DNA of 64,000 bases from NCBI GenBank assembly GCA_003389385.1, contig QQVM01000005.1:62001-126000 (forward strand). The letters are read 5' to 3'. Numbering within the stretch: position 1 is the first letter of the stretch; every line of letters begins with the position of its first letter. The stretch is from Bacteroidota bacterium (GTDB taxonomy: Bacteria; Bacteroidota; Bacteroidia; AKYH767-A; 2013-40CM-41-45). The notes beneath the pieces are model-generated. The model had not been told where the DNA came from. It ran no database searches and saw only the letters and a list, made by a program, of their open reading frames with translations. The translations under genes and the position numbers were made by a program. Shown one piece after another: positions 43,156 through 59,722 of the stretch.

Positions 43156-45747
43156 TTATTCCTTTACAATTCTCACAGTCTGCACTTCATTGCCGTATTC
43201 TACTCTTACAATGTAGATTCCAGCTGCAAGTCCGGAGATGTTGATGTTTTTATTGTAGCTGTATTCAGCATTTTCACTGCTGCTGATCAGTCTGTTACCT
43301 AGAAGATCCGTTACACGGATATTTACTTTGGTCTTCTTGATCTGTGCAATGCTCACTTGTACCTGATCTCTTGCAGGATTAGGATATACACTGAATGCAT
43401 GGTTTGTAACAGTGCCAACCTGTGTTCCAGCCGGTCTTGAACGTTGGCAGGTAATGAAGTTAACTACGATGGCATCGAAGTTCTGACATCCGTTAGCATC
43501 CGTTACAAGCACTGAATATGTGCCTGGAGTGCTTACAAGAAGACTCTGGTTTGTGCTGTTGTCTGACCACAGGTAAGAGCTGAATCCTGCACCTGCGTTA
43601 AGAAGCAGGGTTGATCCGATGCATATGGTTGTATCCGGACCAAGGTTAACATTTGGAGCAGGGAACATTGATCCAATGGTAACTGAAGCAAATGCACGGC
43701 AACCCAGATAATCTTCAACCATGGCCAGGTATGTGCCGGGAGCAAGGTTATTTACGGATGCAGTGGTGTCTCCGTTTGGCCACAGGTATGAGTATGGAGG
43801 AGTTCCACCGGTAGCCATTACTGTGGCTGATCCGTCTTCGCTGCTTGCGCAAGTTGCGTCAGACTGCTGAGTGATGGTGGCAGAAATTCCTGCATTATTC
43901 TGAACTATAGTTGAAACGTTTACTACACAATTGGTAGTAAGGTCTACCACTTCGCAGGCATATGATCCTGTGATCAGGCCTGTTGCAGTGGATGTAGTGC
44001 TCACATTTGGAGTCCAGTTATACTGTATGTTTCCGCTTCCTCCGGTTACGTTAACTGTAGCTGTTCCATTGTTGGCTACACAGGTTGCCGGTGTGGAAGT
44101 CATGGTTACTGAAATCGGAATTCCACCGGTAAGAGTTACTGATCCTGTACCCAGGCAGTTTCTGGAATCTCTTACGCTCACGTTATAAGTTCCTGAAGCT
44201 ACATTGTTCAGATTCGGACCTGTTTGAGAATTACTCCATGTATATGTATATCCCGGTGTTCCGCCTGATGCTACCGCAGTAGCTGAACCAAGTGTTGTGT
44301 TGCAGCCAGGGTTTACTCCTGTAACAGATACAGAAACCGGAGCAGGTTCTGCAATGGTAATCGTTTGCTGACCTACACAACCTGATGCATCAACCACATT
44401 CACGGTATAAACCCCTCCTCTCAGATGTGAAATGGAAGGTGTGAATAGCTCGAGTCCGTTAGGTCCAGTCCAGGTGTATTGCAAGCCAGTACCCTGAGCG
44501 CTCACAGAAGCTGTTCCATTGTGTGAGCCGAAGCAGGAAACTGAAGGTGAATGAGTGACTGTCATGCTGAGCGAAGAAACCTGAATGCTGAATGCATAGC
44601 TTCTCACGCCTGGTGAAGGACAGGCATTATCTCGGATGGTTACAATGAATACATAAGGTTGTGCACGTGCATCAGATGGTTGTGGTGTCCAGCAGAAATG
44701 TCCTGTCGGGATGGGAGATCCGGTAACAGTGAATGTGGCGGCAGGAATTCCGTTGTTCCATGTCATGGTCAGTGTATCTCCCGGGTCTGCGTCATTACTG
44801 AAAATATCAAAGCAGATAGCTCCGCCACAGCTGGAAATACTGAAATCATTTGTTGCATTGATGCCGCTAAGGGCCGGTAATGTATTACTGCAGGCAGTTG
44901 TATATACCTGAATGTCGCGCATTACACTGCCAATCAGAACGCCGTTTCTGTACTCAAGTACCAGAACAGCAATAACACCAACTTCTGTGGCCGTTGGTCT
45001 TAAACGAATGTCACCGGTAACCGGATCAATCGTCACCGGTGTGCTGGATGAGATTGGACTGGCAATCGAGTATCCTGGCAAATAAGTCACAGGCGTATTT
45101 ACCGCATCACGTGGAAGGATAAATGAATAAACCAGTGAATCACCGTCAACATCGATAGCTCCGTGATTGAATACATTCTCTTGTCCGATACACATGAATG
45201 CAATAGGAGGGATGGAGAATGTAGGAGAATTGTTATTGATAGTAGTATTATTTACAAAAGCCTCATTGTACAGATCGTAACCTGCAGGACCCTGAAGGGT
45301 AGTGATGGCTGCGTTCCGGCAGCACTCAAGTACGCTGAAACGCCAATCAGGACACAAAGCAGGTAATGTAACGATACCGCTATAGGTATAGGCTTGAATT
45401 CCTGTTGCATTACCTCCGTTACACGTTGTGACTGCTGTAGAACAAGCTGCTGTAATTTCTACTACGTTGGGGTCTCTTGTCAGAGTTACAGATGGTACTG
45501 TCAGTCCGCAAGAAGCACTGGCGATAGCAACAGTCTTTGTCGTAGGAGCCGAAATACCGAAACAGTCACGGTAGAATGTGAATGTAATCCTGTATTGATT
45601 GTTGCCAAGATAGGTGTAAGTCAAGTCTCCGCCGGCAGCATGGCTTGCATATAAATCCTGACCGCCGATAAATGTGAACAGAACCATAATCAAGGCAAAT
45701 TTTTGTCGCAATGCCTTCATCAGGTTGGTTGAGTAATTGGTTTTCAT
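43156..45747 (-). CDS. SprB-repeat surface protein with T9SS type A sorting domain
   Basis: Two ATG codons (45750, 45747) precede a signal peptide (KALRQKFALIMVLFTFIGG, cleavage near LYA-SHA); a third ATG at 45720 is also possible. About 863 residues. The N-terminal about 400 residues are a Cys-containing beta domain (HAAGGDLTYTYLGNNQYRI; FNHGAIDVDGDSLVYSFILP). Then come four to six SprB-type repeats of about 75 residues, each with GTPGYTYTWSN or YSYLWPNGDT followed by LAPGTY and a CxG ending. The last 80 residues are the sorting domain (VYPNPARDQVQVSI...NISGLAAGIYIVRV...RIVKE). It is exported by T9SS to the cell surface. Ligand unknown. Confidence 0.9.
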   Translation of the reverse strand: MKTNYSTNLMKALRQKFALIMVLFTFIGGQDLYASHAAGGDLTYTYLGNNQYRITFTFYRDCFGISAPTTKTVAIASASCGLTVPSVTLTRDPNVVEITAACSTAVTTCNGGNATGIQAYTYSGIVTLPALCPDWRFSVLECCRNAAITTLQGPAGYDLYNEAFVNNTTINNNSPTFSIPPIAFMCIGQENVFNHGAIDVDGDSLVYSFILPRDAVNTPVTYLPGYSIASPISSSTPVTIDPVTGDIRLRPTATEVGVIAVLVLEYRNGVLIGSVMRDIQVYTTACSNTLPALSGINATNDFSISSCGGAICFDIFSNDADPGDTLTMTWNNGIPAATFTVTGSPIPTGHFCWTPQPSDARAQPYVFIVTIRDNACPSPGVRSYAFSIQVSSLSMTVTHSPSVSCFGSHNGTASVSAQGTGLQYTWTGPNGLELFTPSISHLRGGVYTVNVVDASGCVGQQTITIAEPAPVSVSVTGVNPGCNTTLGSATAVASGGTPGYTYTWSNSQTGPNLNNVASGTYNVSVRDSRNCLGTGSVTLTGGIPISVTMTSTPATCVANNGTATVNVTGGSGNIQYNWTPNVSTTSTATGLITGSYACEVVDLTTNCVVNVSTIVQNNAGISATITQQSDATCASSEDGSATVMATGGTPPYSYLWPNGDTTASVNNLAPGTYLAMVEDYLGCRAFASVTIGSMFPAPNVNLGPDTTICIGSTLLLNAGAGFSSYLWSDNSTNQSLLVSTPGTYSVLVTDANGCQNFDAIVVNFITCQRSRPAGTQVGTVTNHAFSVYPNPARDQVQVSIAQIKKTKVNIRVTDLLGNRLISSSENAEYSYNKNINISGLAAGIYIVRVEYGNEVQTVRIVKE

Positions 45748-45998
45748 CATATTTGGAATTGTATAGGTTTCTGGTTTCAAATTTCTGCTATGCTTGCTGT
45801 ATGATATTATCTGTAATTGAGTAAAAATACCACTATACTCTCTGCATATTTAAACTTCTTTTGTGAATGGACTGATATTCATGGCGAGTGTCCAGAGGCT
45901 CTGTGTTAAGCATGATTATTACTTTACGGGCAAATGCGCCAGAAAGATTAGGGCTACAATTATATTCAAAAATTAGCATAGTGAAGTCCTTCTCACGA

Positions 45999-50481: not shown

Positions 50482-53400
50482 ATGAAAACAGGATGGCACA
50501 TCCTGATCCTTTGCAGCGCTTTTATATTTTCTTCTGCATTGCAGGCACAGAAGGTAAATCCTGCCGAGCTGGAATTGCAGAAGAAAGCTGACAAGTTTTA
50601 TGTCTCAGGCGATTATCAGTCGGCAATTCCTCTTTATTCTCAGTTGTTGAGCCTGCATCCGAACAATGCGTTGTACAACTTCAGGTATGGCAGTGCAGTG
50701 GTCATCGATTCCAAAGAGAAAACTCAAGCCATTCCATTTCTAGAGAAAGCTTCCAGAGATGTTACTCTTCCTGGTGACGTATATTTTTATTTGGGGCAGG
50801 CATACATGCATGCAGAACGATACGCCAAGGCATCTGAGTCTTTTGAAAAGTTTAACTCGCTGGTTACTCCCAGCAAAAAACAGAAAATGGAATCTGATCT
50901 CTGGCTTGGCTACAGCAGAAATGCTGAAAACCTCAGCGGCTCCAGAAAAAATACTGCTGTTTTAAACAGCAGGGAAATTTCCAGAGATAATTTTCAATAT
51001 TCATTTGACTTGTCAACCGCATCTGGTCGAATAATTCCGCTTGCAGAAATTTTTCAATCACAGGCCGACAGGGATAAAAAGGAAAGCCTGTACATGTTCA
51101 TCAGCCGTGACGGACAAACAGGGCTGTTTGCCAGTTATGGAAAGAATGGAATTACCGGTAAGGATTTATACAGGGTGCGTAAAACTCCTTCTGGAAACTG
51201 GTCAGAGCCTGAAAACCTTGGAGCTGTACTAAATACTGCACAGCATGAAGATCATCCTTACCTCGACATAGACGGAAAGACGCTGTATTTCTGCAGCAAG
51301 GGCCACAATAGCATGGGTGGCTATGATATCTTTAAAACTGTCTACAATTACAACACCGGAGAATGGTCCGTTCCTGAAAACCTTGGAGTGCCCTTGAATT
51401 CTGTTGCGGACGATATATTTTTTATTCCAGATGTCAAATCTGGAAGAGCACAATACGCCACTTCCTTCAATGCTCCAAAGGATAAATACATACTTAAAAC
51501 TGTCAGCATTGAAAATTCTCTCGCATCATTTGCGATTATCTCCGGTCAATACATGTCAGTAGATCAGCCAACAAGAAGAGACGCACGAATTATTGTGCTA
51601 AGACCATCTGATAATGCCATTATGACTTCAGTCTGGACGGATTCCAGAACAGGAAAATACGAGATCGTTTTGCCTGCCGGTGAAGATTATGTAATTGTGG
51701 TTGAAGCCGGAGGATACCTTCCCCTTGCTGAAAGATTTTATCTGCCTCCTGATCCTTTTGATGGTATGCGACAGGAAATACGACTGAAAAAGAACGGAAA
51801 GCGTGAGGAGATCATGCTAAGTAATTTCTTCAGCAGGGATGTTGTTTCCGGTAATGCCCTTGCTTCCGGTTCCACTGAAACATCTGTAAGTCCTGAAGAA
51901 TCTGATTCTTCTTCACTGATTCAAATCAGAATTGATGATAAGCTTGTTTATGTTCATGCACCTGAAAAGGTGCTGGAAAGTACTCAGGATGGTAAGCAGG
52001 ATCAATACAAATCTTCTCAGCAGAATCGTGAATTGCAAAACAATAATTCTGAAGATTCAACGACCGGTGACTTTGCTGTAAGAACTGAATCTTCTGCAAT
52101 AAAAGAGAAATCTACTCAGGGCATTACGCTGCCTGAAAAAGATAAATATGACCCCAGTTTAGAACAGGAACTCACGGAGGATGAGATTCGTCAAATAAAA
52201 GAAGAATCCGAAAGGATGAAAATTATCGAGGAGGAAGAGAATAATCCTGCGGCTATGTATGATTTCAATATCAGCAATGAAGACCTGGCTGAGATCGCAC
52301 TTGAGGATTCTAGGACACTGAAAGAGGAGGCGGACAAGTTGCTAAATGATGCTGCTAAGCTAAGATTGAATGCATCCATGCAGGACAGCATAGCAGATGC
52401 TTTGGAAGAGGAAGCGGCAATTCAACCGACAGGAGCGCAGCAAAAAAAGAAAGAACTTCTCGCTAAATCCGCAGAATACAGAGAGTCTGGATCGAATATG
52501 CTGTCAGAAGCGGCAGGCTTGGAGACAATGGCAAATATTAAACTTGATGAATCAAATGCCGCTAAGAAGGATGCAGAGAATATAATGAAAGCCGGCAGAA
52601 AGAGTGGAAGCAGGGAAGCATTGGCTACACGGACATCAACCCAGAATAGCTCGGGATCAATTAAGCCTGGATCAGAATTACAAAAGACAAATTCCACTTC
52701 AGTTGGTGACATAAAAAAAGCTGAAATAGAAAATGAGAAAGCGCAGCAGAATGCCAGCTCGCCAAAATTTTCTGAGCAGGAGAATGAGAAGCAGACAAGA
52801 ACTACACCGGTGAATTCTGAAAGTACACAAGATTTAAAGATTGGGTCTGAGCAAAACATTTCAGCAAATAATGAGGAGCCGGAACAATCAAGTGCAGAAT
52901 TGACAAAAGCTCAAACATCCTCTATTCAGGTTGGCAAGAAAGCAAATGAAAGACCTGACTCTAATAATGCAAATGTTTCTAAGGAGCAACCGACGACAAA
53001 AAAGGAGCATCAAACACGCACTCCTGAAAATTTATCTGCTGAATCAGGCAATCAACATGCCAGTCCGGAAAGCATTCTTAATGAACAAGCAGCTTTGAAT
53101 TCAATTGATAATGTTACTGTTATTAAAGAACCAAACTCAACTGAATCTGAGAAAGAATCTGAGGATGCTTCTATTGCCAGATTAATTCAAGATGCTGAGC
53201 CAGACAACAGAAATCAAACTTCTTCAAAGAATACCTCAACTGCACCTGAAAGCGCTGCAGGAAATAAATCAACTTCTGATGTGTCATCTATAAGAGAAAC
53301 TCCAACTGCAGGACAAATCAAAGCATCATCAAGCATCACACGGAAGGAGTTTGTTGCTGATAGTTTATATCAGACTTCCTTGTTAAGTGCAAAGCAATCG

Positions 53401-56274
53401 CAGGTTATGACTGCAGAAGCTGAAATGCTTTATCAAATGGCAGAGGACATGCCTGAAGGTAAACAACAGGACAGCATAGTGAACTTAGCTGTAAAGAAAG
53501 GTGAGGAATCCAAGCGACTTTGGAATGCTGCAGAGAGTCAGCTGTCAGATGCCATTGAGTCAAATCCTGAATTGAAATATGATAAGCAGATTTTTGGAGA
53601 AAGAAGTCAGACTCTGGCTATTAATAAATCAGAGCCCGAAGAGAAATCTTCAAAAGCTTCAAAATCCTCTCCTGCAGGTGTTTTGGCAGAAACCTCCGCA
53701 ATAATCAGTTCTCCTAAAACTGAAGATAATGTTGACAAGACAAGTGAGGCAATATCATCTGATATGACTTCAGTGAGCACAAAAGGAGGGCAAAGACACT
53801 CTTCAGAAACTGACAAGGCTTCTGACAAGGTTACTCGAGAAAATTCAACGAAAATCAAATCCGGTTCATCGGATCTCAACAGAGTTGATTCGATGATCGC
53901 TGTTTCTCCTTCCGGTATTGCCACTGAATTGCTTACAAGACAAGATACAGCCGGTACACAGGATGTTGAAAGTCTAAAGCAGAACTCCGCACTCCTGGCC
54001 ACTGAAGTTCATACTGCAAACAGGGATGAAGAATCTTCCTCAGTAACTAAAAAAACTGTCATTGAACAGAGTCAGATTGCTACAAGCAATAATCTTGGCA
54101 GCGGATCTGAAAAATCTGATGATTCAAATGCAAAGAGAGAAACTTTAATCAAGTCAGGTGCTGAAAAGATGAGTTCGGAAATGTCTGATGTTTCTGGGGC
54201 AGGAAGTGCTGAGTCAAAAGCTGCAGAATCAGAAAAGTTACAAAAGAAAAAGGCTGAGCGGATCGAGAATTCAGATTTAACTGTAGATCACACTAAAAAG
54301 TCAAATAATAGTATTTCGGAAAGTCCAGATGAAAAACTGGATCTGAGTAAAGTGAGAATGGAAGAAGACACAGATAGCGATTTGAACCAATCACATCCTG
54401 CTTATTCAGAATATACTGATTTAAAAGAGAAAATTCGTACAGGTCAGGTTGAGACTATCAATCTTTTTGCTGAAGCCATGAATCTGAGCCGTGATGCTAA
54501 CAGGGAAAAAGAAGAGCATCAGAAATTGATGGATCGAATTTCCAATACCCAAAACGCAGAGGAAAAAACCAGCTTATTGAATTCTGCCATCGAATTGAAA
54601 ATTTCCTATGAGAAGAAAGAGCATCAGGCTGCATTAAAATTCAGAGAAAGCCAGGAGAATACGGGTGAAATCAGAGTTCTTGAATCACGAAAAGACAGTC
54701 TGAGAGAAATTATTGCTGCACCGGGCTTAGCTTCAGATGTTCGATCCTCTCAAACTGAATCTGATCTGCAGAAAAGCACGGAGAACTTAATTGTGAATGA
54801 AAGTACTAATAGAGTAGATAGGAGAGAAGAGCCTGCTACAAAGAATGAGACTACTCAATCTGCAATCAATTCAGAGCTTAATCCTGAGCCTGTAAAGCAG
54901 GATAATATTCCGTCGACGACACAAACTAAAGAGAAAGAAGATGAAGTCAGGAATACACCTTTGGTTCCTGCAGGAAACATTGCCAGAAACGAAAAAATAA
55001 TTGAACTCATGCCTCTGGCCCCGGTTAATCCGGCTCCTATAGTAAATATCAGCAGAGTAGAAGCTGAAGAGTTAGGAGCGCAAATGTTTTCTAAACCATC
55101 CGGCATTACTTATTCCTCTGCGAATCCTATTCCTCTTGATCCGGCACTTCCGGAAGGCCTGAGTTTTAAGGTTCAGATAGGCGCATTCAGAAAACCGATT
55201 CCAGATAATAGCTTCCGAAACCTTCAGCCAATTTCTGCAGAACGTTCAAGGCCGGGCTGGATTCGTTATTGTGTTGGCATGTTCAGAACATTTGAACCTG
55301 CGAATCTGGTAAAAACTGAATTGAGGCGGAGTGGTTATCCCGATGCCTTTGTTGTGGCATATTATAACGGAGAAAGAATTTCCCTTCAAAGGGCGCGTGA
55401 ACTGATGCAGCTGAATGATGCTTCAAAACTAACTGCCTACAATTCTGAAATGAGCAAAGAAATTGCTGTACTTCAAAGACTGGAAGTGATCAGGAAAGAC
55501 ATTGCCGTTCCTTCGGAGGACAGAGATGCAGCTTTGTTTTATGGTTCCTCTGCAAATATTTCTTTGCCTGCTTTAAGCGAGGCTTCCTCATCCGTTGACA
55601 GGTCTGAAATTCATTTGTCTGCAGAAAAGTTCACAGTCCAAATAGGAGTTTACAGAACAGCGACGCCTCCTTCATTGCTTGCATCATTCGAAACATTGTA
55701 TGGGGAAGTGCTTTCAGGAGGGCTTCATCGTTTCATGACAGGATTGTTTGATGAAAGAGCACAAGCAGAAACTGCGCTTGTAAATGCAAGAAACAAAGGT
55801 ATTCCGGATGCCTTCATTACTAGGGTAAGGGATGCAAGGCTGATATCTTACAACAAGACTTCCGCTGAAACATCGAATGTTTCAGCACCAGCTTCTGTTT
55901 CAAATGTGAATGTGACAGCGAAAGAGAGTGCTTCAGAAAAAAAGCCAGAAGGTGTTGAAGCACTTTCAGCTCCCACAATTGATAGTCCTGTTTCCGGGAA
56001 AATTATTTATCGTGTTCAGATTGGTGCATTTCGTGAAAATGTATCATTTTCTGCCGTTGAATCATTCCTTAAAATCCGCGATCACGGCATTATTCGTGAA
56101 ACTGATGCAAGGAATCTGAATATTTTTTATGCCGGTGAATTCAGTGAGCATGCTTCAGCCGAAATACTGAAGGCAGAAGCGGTTCGTGCGGGAATCAGCG
56201 ATGCATTTGTAGTGGCCTTCAGCAATGGTAAAAAAATCCCTGTTCAGGATGCATTGAGGATATCAGGGCAGTAA
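50482..56274 (+). CDS. Giant envelope protein: TPR, PD40 propeller, CRD, long disordered/helical region, three SPOR domains
   Basis: 1930 residues with a signal peptide (HILILCSAFIFSSALQA). Residues about 25-135 are TPR helices (YVSGDYQSAIPLYSQLL). About 190-335 contain PD40-type blades (NLGAVLNTAQHEDHPYLDIDG; FCSKGHNSMGGYDIF). About 350-440 are a carboxypeptidase-regulatory-like fold (SRTGKYEIVLPAGEDYVIVVEAGGYLPLAE). About 450-1550 are Ser/Glu/Lys-rich and mostly disordered, with three coiled helical islands (about 590-705, 960-1045, 1300-1395). Three SPOR-type repeats end the protein: FKVQIGAFRKP (from about 1558), FTVQIGVYRTA (about 1715) and YRVQIGAFREN (about 1840). SPOR domains bind peptidoglycan. 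The front end equals that of PorE, the T9SS anchor. Confidence 0.88.
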   Translation: MKTGWHILILCSAFIFSSALQAQKVNPAELELQKKADKFYVSGDYQSAIPLYSQLLSLHPNNALYNFRYGSAVVIDSKEKTQAIPFLEKASRDVTLPGDVYFYLGQAYMHAERYAKASESFEKFNSLVTPSKKQKMESDLWLGYSRNAENLSGSRKNTAVLNSREISRDNFQYSFDLSTASGRIIPLAEIFQSQADRDKKESLYMFISRDGQTGLFASYGKNGITGKDLYRVRKTPSGNWSEPENLGAVLNTAQHEDHPYLDIDGKTLYFCSKGHNSMGGYDIFKTVYNYNTGEWSVPENLGVPLNSVADDIFFIPDVKSGRAQYATSFNAPKDKYILKTVSIENSLASFAIISGQYMSVDQPTRRDARIIVLRPSDNAIMTSVWTDSRTGKYEIVLPAGEDYVIVVEAGGYLPLAERFYLPPDPFDGMRQEIRLKKNGKREEIMLSNFFSRDVVSGNALASGSTETSVSPEESDSSSLIQIRIDDKLVYVHAPEKVLESTQDGKQDQYKSSQQNRELQNNNSEDSTTGDFAVRTESSAIKEKSTQGITLPEKDKYDPSLEQELTEDEIRQIKEESERMKIIEEEENNPAAMYDFNISNEDLAEIALEDSRTLKEEADKLLNDAAKLRLNASMQDSIADALEEEAAIQPTGAQQKKKELLAKSAEYRESGSNMLSEAAGLETMANIKLDESNAAKKDAENIMKAGRKSGSREALATRTSTQNSSGSIKPGSELQKTNSTSVGDIKKAEIENEKAQQNASSPKFSEQENEKQTRTTPVNSESTQDLKIGSEQNISANNEEPEQSSAELTKAQTSSIQVGKKANERPDSNNANVSKEQPTTKKEHQTRTPENLSAESGNQHASPESILNEQAALNSIDNVTVIKEPNSTESEKESEDASIARLIQDAEPDNRNQTSSKNTSTAPESAAGNKSTSDVSSIRETPTAGQIKASSSITRKEFVADSLYQTSLLSAKQSQVMTAEAEMLYQMAEDMPEGKQQDSIVNLAVKKGEESKRLWNAAESQLSDAIESNPELKYDKQIFGERSQTLAINKSEPEEKSSKASKSSPAGVLAETSAIISSPKTEDNVDKTSEAISSDMTSVSTKGGQRHSSETDKASDKVTRENSTKIKSGSSDLNRVDSMIAVSPSGIATELLTRQDTAGTQDVESLKQNSALLATEVHTANRDEESSSVTKKTVIEQSQIATSNNLGSGSEKSDDSNAKRETLIKSGAEKMSSEMSDVSGAGSAESKAAESEKLQKKKAERIENSDLTVDHTKKSNNSISESPDEKLDLSKVRMEEDTDSDLNQSHPAYSEYTDLKEKIRTGQVETINLFAEAMNLSRDANREKEEHQKLMDRISNTQNAEEKTSLLNSAIELKISYEKKEHQAALKFRESQENTGEIRVLESRKDSLREIIAAPGLASDVRSSQTESDLQKSTENLIVNESTNRVDRREEPATKNETTQSAINSELNPEPVKQDNIPSTTQTKEKEDEVRNTPLVPAGNIARNEKIIELMPLAPVNPAPIVNISRVEAEELGAQMFSKPSGITYSSANPIPLDPALPEGLSFKVQIGAFRKPIPDNSFRNLQPISAERSRPGWIRYCVGMFRTFEPANLVKTELRRSGYPDAFVVAYYNGERISLQRARELMQLNDASKLTAYNSEMSKEIAVLQRLEVIRKDIAVPSEDRDAALFYGSSANISLPALSEASSSVDRSEIHLSAEKFTVQIGVYRTATPPSLLASFETLYGEVLSGGLHRFMTGLFDERAQAETALVNARNKGIPDAFITRVRDARLISYNKTSAETSNVSAPASVSNVNVTAKESASEKKPEGVEALSAPTIDSPVSGKIIYRVQIGAFRENVSFSAVESFLKIRDHGIIRETDARNLNIFYAGEFSEHASAEILKAEAVRAGISDAFVVAFSNGKKIPVQDALRISGQ

Positions 56275-56336
56275 TTTTTCTTTCTGCGTTTTTTGAGTAT
56301 AATGATTCCTCTCTTTAATAATTGTTTTCTTTTTTT

Positions 56337-56344
56337 TATTTTTG
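56337..56344 (+). promoter_or_regulatory. Possible -7 element for clpS
   Basis: TATTTTTG matches TAnnTTTG and ends 13 bases before the ATG of clpS; a -33 partner is not clear. Confidence 0.4.
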
Positions 56345-56357
56345 TTTGACAAAAGGG

Positions 56358-56651
56358 ATGAACATGCAATTCTGGATGAATCACAAGCCGCTGGAAGAAG
56401 TGGTTGAGAATGTTGATGTCAGCGAAGCAAGACTGCGCGAACTTGTTCTTTATAACGATGACTACAATACTTTTGAGTTTGTAATTGAATGTCTGATTGA
56501 GATTTGCCAGCATGATGTCATTCAGGCGGAGCAATGCACATACATCGTTCATTATAACGGAAAATGTGCGGTCAAGACCGGTTCTTTCTCCGACCTTCAG
56601 CCTATGAAGCATGCGCTTTGTGATAAAGGATTATCCGCTGTGATACATTAA
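56358..56651 (+). CDS. clpS: ATP-dependent Clp protease adaptor ClpS
   Basis: The ATG at 56358 is chosen over a TTG at 56322; another ATG lies two codons later. About 97 residues. The N-end-rule binding site is present: RELVLYNDDYNTFEFVIECL, then the AEQCTYIVHYNGKCAVKTG region, close to the typical A-x-x-x-H-x-x-G-x-x-x-v pattern. It hands proteins with destabilising N-terminal residues to ClpA/ClpC-ClpP. It lies between the envelope protein and the M48 peptidase. Confidence 0.92.
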   Translation: MNMQFWMNHKPLEEVVENVDVSEARLRELVLYNDDYNTFEFVIECLIEICQHDVIQAEQCTYIVHYNGKCAVKTGSFSDLQPMKHALCDKGLSAVIH

Positions 56652-56706: not shown

Positions 56707-57501
56707 ATGAAAGTCAAATTCATTTATTCCTTACTGCTTGTCTTCATAATCACTTCATGCAGCAAGGTGCCAATCACCAAAAGAAAACAATTGAATCTTT
56801 TGCCGGAAAGTGAGCTGATGGCAATGAGCTTAACAGCTTACCGTGATTTTTTAAGGGAGAATCCTCCTGTTAGCAATACTCCGGATGCAGCCATGGTCAA
56901 GTCTGCCGGAGTGAAAATTTCCAATGCGGTATCCCGCTACATGAACCAGAATGGAATGGGTAAAAGAATAAAAGGATATAACTGGGAATTCAATCTGGTC
57001 AATTCACCACAAGTGAATGCATGGTGTATGCCGGGTGGAAAAGTGGTCGTTTACCAGGGACTCATAGGAGTGGCGCAGGATGAAGGAAGCCTTGCTATCG
57101 TGATGGGGCATGAGATTGCACATGCTGTTGCGCGTCATGGGAATGAAAGAATGAGTCAGGGTCTTGCAGCGGCAGGATTTGGACTTGCTCTTGATGTCGC
57201 GCTTTCACAAAAGAGTCAGGAGACAAGAACTTTATTTCTCACTTCCTATGGAGTAGGTTCGACACTGGGAATTCTTGCTTATTCAAGGACGCATGAAACC
57301 GAAGCAGACAAACTCGGACTGGTCTTTGCGGCGATGGCGGGTTATGATCCCAGGAAAGCTGTAGGATTTTGGGAGAGGATGTCTCAACAAGGAGGAGCAA
57401 AGCCACCTGAATTATTGAGCACACATCCGAGTGATCATACGCGCATCAAGAATCTGAAAGAGTTCATGCCTACGGCTCTAAAATATTACAAGCCATCATA
57501 A
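56707..57501 (+). CDS. M48-family zinc metallopeptidase, lipoprotein
   Basis: 264 residues. A lipoprotein signal (LLLVFIITSCSK, lipid-carrying C18) anchors it, probably in the outer membrane facing the periplasm. The zinc site is HEIAH at 135-139 in MGHEIAHAVARHG, with the third ligand Glu in HETEADKLG about 60 residues on. The wording GGKVVVYQGLI and THPSDHTRIKNL is typical of the OMA1/BepA-like group. A role in quality control of envelope proteins is likely. tRNA-Arg follows. Confidence 0.93.
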   Translation: MKVKFIYSLLLVFIITSCSKVPITKRKQLNLLPESELMAMSLTAYRDFLRENPPVSNTPDAAMVKSAGVKISNAVSRYMNQNGMGKRIKGYNWEFNLVNSPQVNAWCMPGGKVVVYQGLIGVAQDEGSLAIVMGHEIAHAVARHGNERMSQGLAAAGFGLALDVALSQKSQETRTLFLTSYGVGSTLGILAYSRTHETEADKLGLVFAAMAGYDPRKAVGFWERMSQQGGAKPPELLSTHPSDHTRIKNLKEFMPTALKYYKPS

Positions 57502-58079: not shown

Positions 58080-59722
58080 TCACTCAAACACAATCTTCCC
58101 TGTGTACTGCTTCTTGCCATTGCTGAGTGTGGCGATGTAGATGCCTTTAGCTTCTGCTTCGAGATTCAAGCGGATATTCTCATCCTCTACAGAAACAGGG
58201 TATTCCCGTATCTGTCTGCCTTCTGAATTATATATTCTCAACACAATGTTTTTCTCACTTAAGAATTCAGACGGAATGGTCACAGAACATTTGCCTGTTG
58301 TGGGATTAGCGTAGATCATCAGGGTGTTCCCCGCTTTTCTTTCAAGCTCGGGCACATCAATGAAATTATCCAGGCGGGCTATGAACATATCGGATGAGCC
58401 ATAACTGTGATAGGTGTCATTACCGATGTTCACAGTATTAAAAAACATCCCGGCCACCACCACAGAACCATCTGAAAGCCCTACCACTGCTGCACCTCTG
58501 GCTGCCCCAAAGTTTTTCAGACCAAGACAATCGCCATTGGGAGAATACAATGCAACAAACATATCAGGATTACTTACAGCGGTAGTACTGCAAGAACCAA
58601 GGTTGAGCGAATGATTGAATTCACCTATTACAAAAGTATTTCCGTCAATAGTTGTATAATTGCTCCACACATAGGCTTCCGCCCATGGAGAATTGAAGTT
58701 CTTTGCCCATAAATAATTGCCATCTGCATCACATTTCAATAAATAACCATTGGGATAAGCTGCATTGGTAATTGAATCAGTATTAAAATATGCAGCAGCA
58801 CTTGTGATACCGATTGAATAAAAACTTCCTTGTGCATCAAAGCTTAAATTATCTCCTCCAGAAGAAGCAGGTATTCCATATTGATTCGCCCAGATCACAT
58901 TTCCTGCATATCAAAAGAGGCAACAATGGTTCCAGATATGTTAGGGTTGCTGAATGCGATGGTATCAATATTAAAAACATTTGTATTTTGCCATCCGGAA
59001 ATATATATTCTGTTGTTTTTTAATTTCAATGATGCAATAGTGATTGCTGATCCAATTGAAATATCAAAATTATTGATAACTTGTTTCGACCAGAGCATAT
59101 TACCGTCCGGATCCAGCTTAATTAAATTTCCTCCGTCGGAAATAGTGTCATTATCATAATACGCACCTGCAGAAAAGCTCCCGCCTAAATAAATATTTCC
59201 AATTGAATCCACATCTGCAGCTACAACATAATCGTCTCCAAAGCCAGTAAAAGTTTTCATCCAAAGCAAAGTACCTGATGACGATATTTTACAAACAAGG
59301 GCATCTCCATTGGAATTATTACTACAAACAACAGTACTATCAAAGTAGATGCAACATGTAGTGGTTCCTGAAAGAATGATCGCGTCTGAATACGGATCAT
59401 ATACTATTTCACCAATACCTCCGCTATTTTGAAAACCTGAATATTCTTTAAAATTTTTGTACCAGAGAATCGTTCCGAATTTATCATATTTAAACAATAT
59501 AAAATTTACATCTCCATCGGTATTAATTGTATCATTTTGGATGAATGTCAAAGCACTGCCATTTACTCTTCCTAATACATAAATATTATCATTTAAGTCT
59601 TTTGTAATTAAATAAAAAGAATCATCATTTGCGCTTCCAATATTTTGTGACCATTGCCAATTTTGAGCGTGTAGCTTGAAAAAGCTTAGCAGAACTAAAA
59701 CTAATGGAATATTTTTTTTCAT
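58080..59722 (-). pseudogene. Frameshifted secreted beta-propeller-like protein with T9SS sorting domain
   Basis: Two overlapping frames make one protein. The first (59722-58895, 275 residues) has a signal peptide (PLVLVLLSFFKLHA) and repeats of the SBBP kind (DLNDNIYVLGRV; DSIGNIYLGGSF; DPDGNMLWSKQV). It stops at ...SFDMQEM. The second (58898-58080) continues the same repeat pattern (AGNVIWANQYG...; DADGNYLWAKNF) and ends in a T9SS sorting domain (IYANPTTGKCSVTIP...KGIYIATLSNGKKQYTGKIVFE). At about 58900 one missing base between GAT-AT and GCAGGAAATGTG explains the break. It is either a recent pseudogene or a sequencing error. Confidence 0.8.

Follow-up and report, generated by a model that had tools for sequence, protein, structure and literature searches.

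What does a protein do that begins like PorE, a component of the T9SS, and ends in three SPOR domains? The 64,000-nucleotide stretch of Bacteroidota DNA analyzed here (the window) contains an ORF of 1930 codons, starting with ATG and with no internal stops, whose product raises this question. An earlier note on the same DNA had read its N-terminal part as PorE-like and its C-terminal part as three SPOR repeats in place of an OmpA domain, separated by a long spacer, and knew of no such architecture. We likewise found no published description of a TPR-PD40-CRD-3xSPOR protein in the open-access literature, to which the search was confined. TPR-PD40 wall anchors as such are already known; the protein represents a conserved, apparently undescribed family.

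Domain architecture of the 1930-residue protein

The order of the N-terminal domains given in the earlier note, TPR, PD40 propeller, and carboxypeptidase-regulatory-like domain (CRD), was borne out by Pfam, the PorE profile, and the predicted fold. The TPR domain matched PF07719 (E 8.2e-8), PD40 scored 20.3 bits, marginally below the Pfam cut-off of 20.9, and the CarboxypepD_reg match was sub-threshold at 13.7 bits. An AlphaFold2 model of the front end, based on an alignment of 59 sequences with relatives from named genomes, had pLDDT values above 90 across most of residues 27-450 and contained the eight TPR helices, the propeller strands, and the beta-sandwich within the limits given in Table 1. 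After residue 450, the model showed disorder followed by two long antiparallel helices in island 1, the first of three helical islands in the linker. Foldseek and VIA-align comparisons yielded no useful match for the propeller because TPR matches occupied the whole lists; this result hence says nothing against the propeller. The signal peptide, when its sequence was read, had no lipobox, and its Cys at residue 11, which follows LIL, was not conserved among the aligned relatives. Lipid anchoring to the outer membrane, which the earlier reading implied, was thus not supported, and no other outer-membrane anchor was visible on the protein.

Pfam did not detect an OmpA domain in the 1930-aa protein and found SPOR there instead. 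The match to PF05036 was significant both for the whole protein (26.9 bits, above the cut-off of 21) and for the 396-aa tail (E 2.8e-9, 37.6 bits); scored singly, SPOR1 passed the cut-off with 21.7 bits and SPOR2 and SPOR3 were sub-threshold with 15.3 and 15.6 bits, respectively. SPOR matches were obtained in 20/20 orthologous tails (best 1.4e-16). Structure prediction of the tail gave three SPOR-type domains at residues 1560-1628, 1716-1783, and 1841-1914 with the predicted beta-alpha-beta-beta-alpha-beta fold, and the repeat starts proposed previously (1558, 1715, and 1840) were right within about 4 residues. The best PDB match of the modelled SPOR was the CwlC SPOR, 1x60 (probability 1.00, TMt 0.72), with the DedD and DamX SPORs ranking lower, and a repeat profile of the SPORs compared with solved structures also matched 1x60 (2.5e-5) and, weakly, FtsN 1uta (0.55). 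The orthologue matches, the model, the PDB match, and the profile comparison rule out that these repeats are mere look-alikes, and the proposal that three SPOR domains replace OmpA stands.

The Ser/Glu/Lys-rich spacer of about 1100 residues, also recognized earlier, contained 14% Ser, 13% Glu, and 9% Lys. Across 62 orthologues, its mean length was 1247 residues (SD 181), its length being kept and its sequence not. The three helical islands within it were likewise confirmed. The repeat unit of the islands is a helical hairpin of about 75 residues, present in 2 to about 13 copies per protein. An iterated profile seeded with island 3 found copies in 74 proteins, with 2 to 14 in each at a loose threshold and as many as 13 per protein at E<0.001, and among the orthologues it detected 326 copies at E<0.01. 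The same profile gave no matches on reversed or locally shuffled copies of the orthologues, ruling out that the islands are a product of chance or composition. Since the island-1 position in relatives was also matched by the island-3 profile, the three islands probably belong to a single repeat family, as judged from these alignments. In the tail model, a long helical hairpin spanned residues 1306-1412; VIA-align matched it to unrelated long coiled coils (Z 9-12), a likeness that is one of common arrangement only. At one related locus (L050 5486-17159, G019), two adjacent front ends, in ORFs of 2502 and 876 aa, flank a 411-aa ORF of helical repeats; this is apparently a tandem duplication with one copy split.

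Table 1. Features of the 1930-residue protein, its gene, and the adjoining genes; positions are those of the window
Feature	Residues	Position	Strand	Basis
Whole gene, 1930-aa secreted protein TPR-PD40-CRD-linker-3xSPOR		50482..56274	+	ORF, Pfam, predicted folds
Signal peptide, type I look (..SSALQA/QK), no lipobox		50482..50550	+	Sequence reading; aligned relatives
TPR domain, eight helices	27-151	50560..50934	+	Pfam, AlphaFold2, structure comparison (Z up to 17 to TPR domains)
PD40-type propeller region, about 184 residues	159-342	50956..51507	+	Pfam, NCBIfam, predicted fold
Carboxypeptidase-regulatory-like beta-sandwich	350-449	51529..51828	+	Pfam sub-threshold, NCBIfam, predicted fold
Linker, rich in Ser, Glu, and Lys; modelled parts mainly disordered apart from helical islands	455-1530	51844..55071	+	Composition, models
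Helical island 1, long antiparallel helices	597-705	52270..52596	+	AlphaFold2 model, repeat profile
Island 2, helical-hairpin repeat copy	952-1025	53335..53556	+	Repeat profile E 4.6e-8
Island 3, helical-hairpin repeat copy	1318-1393	54433..54660	+	Repeat profile E 1.1e-13; model: two helices of ~50 residues each
SPOR1	1560-1634	55159..55383	+	Pfam, model, conservation, PDB match
SPOR2	1715-1786	55624..55839	+	Pfam, model, conservation
SPOR3	1840-1917	55999..56232	+	Pfam, model, conservation
clpS, downstream neighbour, conserved at most orthologous loci		56322..56651	+	Context
M48 peptidase, often next after clpS		56707..57501	+	Context

Ligand-site residues of the SPOR domains

RlpA contacts denuded glycan through the side chains of Q270, R302, R309, and R311, with F274 delimiting the groove; among the contact residues, only the Gln, which touches NAM/NAG, is highly conserved (PMC6895207). 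We counted the residues at the corresponding positions in the 66 sequences with both ends, drawn from 80 of at least 487 tail relatives. The site Gln was present in 66/66 rows in SPOR1 (Q1565) and SPOR2 (Q1720) and in 58/66 in SPOR3 (Q1846), and the site aromatic was kept in all three SPORs, one SPOR2 sequence excepted. A1568, F1569, and R1595 of SPOR1 were also invariant (66/66). In SPOR2, the position of R1750 was occupied by Arg in 62 rows and Lys in 4, and the Ala of the GAF motif was mostly replaced by Val; in SPOR3, the Arg position had no basic residue in the query or in the relatives inspected. The conserved Arg position of SPOR1 and SPOR2 precedes the second conserved Gly by four residues and, when aligned through CwlC (RlpA itself being absent from the alignments), would be equivalent to R309 of RlpA; the other two arginines of RlpA had no counterpart in these same alignments. 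With the Gln and one Arg position kept in both SPOR1 and SPOR2 across the 66 rows, the affinity for denuded glycan suggested in the earlier note appears probable.

The genome contained one match to Amidase_3 (G000:C9:8998-9678). The ORF that carries it (L080 3759-5168; G000:C9:8759-10168) ends in a SPOR that shares about 40% identity with SPOR1, so that a putative ligand-making enzyme and a matching reader are both encoded in this genome.

Distribution and relation to PorE and the T9SS

Orthologues with both the front end and the tail occurred in other members of the genus, as well as of the family, the order, and the class. A search of contigs with the single N-terminal sequence gave no match, and relatives were found when an alignment was used as the query. 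A scan of GTDB representatives revealed at least 487 relatives of the tail; the 80 that were kept came from Bacteroidota or from MAGs labelled only "bacterium", and at 66 of these 80 loci, all from public MAGs, both ends lay in one ORF of 1600-2600 aa, which rules out a gene fusion artefact or an assembly error in the window. About 94 of the 247 genomes of the class (~38%) had a tail match with E < 1e-39. Members of a related family (f4) were often short, at 590-650 aa, with one SPOR. Two further loci (L064 6472-10023, 1183 aa; L067 5881-10620, 1579 aa) had the front end and a tail with no recognizable SPOR motif, and at another (L043 4647-12317, G005) the orthologue was split into separate front-end and tail ORFs.

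The neighbouring genes encode PhoH, PurC, an rRNA methyltransferase, ClpS, and the M48 peptidase, among which there was no known division or wall gene, and no gene of the T9SS machine lay beside the 1930-aa ORF. Farther away in the window, an 874-aa protein encoded on the minus strand (43156-45780) contains SprB repeats as well as a Por secretion tail, which marks it as a T9SS cargo. On the same strand, an ORF with a signal peptide (58895-59722) and one with a sorting-tail-like end (58080-58898; together 58080-59722) share 4 bases and appear to be a single secreted protein broken by a frameshift.

The protein shares with PorE (PG1058) the TPR domain, the PD40 propeller, and the CRD in the same order. 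It differs from PorE, a lipoprotein (PMC7192894) of the outer membrane's inner leaflet, in lacking the OmpA domain and the lipobox and in possessing three SPORs and an 1100-residue linker with helical repeats; its propeller region, at about 184 residues, is also about 85 residues shorter than the 269 residues (167-435) of the PorE propeller (PMC7192894). In NCBIfam, it scored 78.6 bits against PorE (NF052230) and 120 bits against CHU_0125 (NF053607), far below the respective cut-offs of 600 and 620 bits. Residues 207-417 were the best stretch for both models; the expected resemblance of the front end to PorE was thus found, but below the cut-off and with CHU_0125 nearer. In a genome-wide PorE search, the protein reached 82.1 bits, compared with 601 for a canonical PorE with an OmpA domain encoded elsewhere in the genome (G000:C19:22500-24431), which exceeds the cut-off. 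In this PorE (L078 4354-6924, G000:C19), OmpA is followed by a LysM domain, which the PorE described previously does not have. Three further TPR-PD40-OmpA proteins were found in the genome, making four in total.

In a front-end tree, 25 SPOR-family rows were separated from 5 paralogues of this genome with a split support of 99/97, under midpoint rooting only. In addition, all of the carriers tested (26/26) had a separate PorE-like OmpA protein that matched nearly the full PorE model (E < 1e-90), most of these scoring below the 600-bit cut-off, which rules out that the SPOR protein has replaced PorE. The domain order of the original PorE reading survives. Identity with PorE (78.6 bits against 600) and a T9SS role are not supported, and orthology to PorE largely falls with the presence of the canonical protein elsewhere in the genome.

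The protein could still be an accessory component of the T9SS or of gliding, its TPR domain and propeller binding T9SS parts and its SPORs, in place of OmpA, fixing the machine to peptidoglycan at the septum or where the wall is remodelled. This would agree with the PorE-like front end, with the SprB-repeat cargo in the window, and with the presence of SprA in 93 of the ~94 genomes with a three-SPOR tail. However, SprA was found in 239/247 genomes of the class sample, so this overlap says nothing about a T9SS role, and we set the co-occurrence aside as uninformative. Conversely, about 60 SprA-bearing genomes of the sample had no tail match. One genome of the same family (G004, 99% complete) has an intact SprA (2761 bits), and the gene is absent from its clpS-M48 site, where the closest large ORF on the upstream side of clpS is glycosyltransferase-like and only ~750 bases away; the best front-end match in this genome was an OmpA protein. 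(A genome without SprA, G072, encodes a 475-aa TPR-PD40 protein with no SPOR, which was excluded from the orthologue count.) Judged by gene content, these genomes argue that the SPOR protein does not belong to the T9SS core. With PorE present separately, the lipobox missing, and no T9SS machine genes adjoining, it is probably not part of the machine, and we regard an accessory role, perhaps confined to certain lineages, as unlikely.

A possible tether between envelope and septal wall

Among the named families, CHU_0125, of Pal-like TPR-PD40-OmpA proteins, is the closest to the front end (120 bits); the SPOR protein differs from it, besides scoring far below its cut-off, in having the SPOR tail and the long spacer and no OmpA. 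With FtsN, DamX, RlpA, and CwlC it shares the SPOR fold and the Gln/aromatic/Arg pattern of the ligand site, but it has three SPORs per protein, a TPR-propeller front end, and no enzyme domain. In the Tol-Pal system, a PD40-type propeller (TolB) is paired with a wall-binding module (Pal), as in the SPOR protein, which by comparison is a single polypeptide with SPOR in place of OmpA. TolB_N had no match in this genome or in three relatives, and envelope linking during division may therefore use other parts in these four genomes. CHU_0125 resembles Pal and is required for the integrity of the outer membrane (PMC5891637); its role and the absence of TolB_N fit a Pal-like role for the SPOR protein by analogy but do not prove it.

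We give about even odds to a role as a soluble tether in the periplasm: SPOR1 and SPOR2 would hold septal glycan denuded by amidases, and the TPR domain and propeller would hold an envelope partner across the long spacer. The protein would be exported by Sec, amidases at the septum would produce glycan strands stripped of their stem peptides, and these strands would be bound by SPOR1 and SPOR2 and, less strongly, by SPOR3. At the opposite end, the TPR domain and the short PD40 propeller would hold the envelope partner, and the middle of about 1100 residues, with its disorder broken by rigid helical hairpins, would allow the front end to reach far from the bound glycan. Such a protein would be like an anchor of the Pal/CHU_0125 type in which OmpA, and with it the hold on intact peptidoglycan, has given way to SPOR and a hold on septal peptidoglycan, and the outcome would be an envelope partner linked to constriction. 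Against the tether stand the missing outer-membrane anchor, the lack of a known division or wall gene nearby, and the SPOR3 domain without its Arg. The lack of the gene in G004 and the short forms with a single SPOR also imply that three SPORs and a long spacer are not always needed.

The missing Arg of SPOR3 would suit a different function, that of a CHU_0125/Pal-type protein serving envelope integrity in general and binding peptidoglycan over the whole cell, for which the SPOR tail would be a wall module rather than a septal address. The front end, nearer to CHU_0125 than to PorE, and the harm that loss of CHU_0125 does to outer-membrane integrity (PMC5891637) point the same way. However, the four TPR-PD40-OmpA proteins of the genome could already serve this purpose, and SPOR1 and SPOR2 keep their residues for denuded glycan with little or no variation, making this function improbable in our view. 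It seems more doubtful still that the protein acts like FtsN or DamX, using a regulatory contact of its TPR/propeller end to control or recruit either the SPOR-bearing amidase or some other hydrolase or synthase of the wall. Its SPOR type recurs in the one detected Amidase_3 protein, and in E. coli the SPOR proteins DamX and DedD stimulate synthases (PMC7642682), but our analysis revealed nothing that ties the protein directly to an enzyme, and the adjoining genes include no wall enzyme.

The tether reading can be carried a step further, although only tentatively: the protein may be a Bacteroidota-specific division clamp, with a TolB/Pal-like front end, a spacer of conserved length, and a triple SPOR, acting where TolB is undetectable, and the repeat of ~75 residues in its 2 to about 13 copies may constitute a new periplasmic ruler.

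A TPR-PD40-CRD protein should not be taken for PorE on that architecture, since a single genome has four with OmpA and one with SPOR. To our knowledge, the coupling of outer-membrane constriction to septal wall remodelling in Bacteroidota has been little studied; the SPOR family provides a concrete candidate for this coupling, with a testable ligand in denuded glycan and a natural absence in G004.
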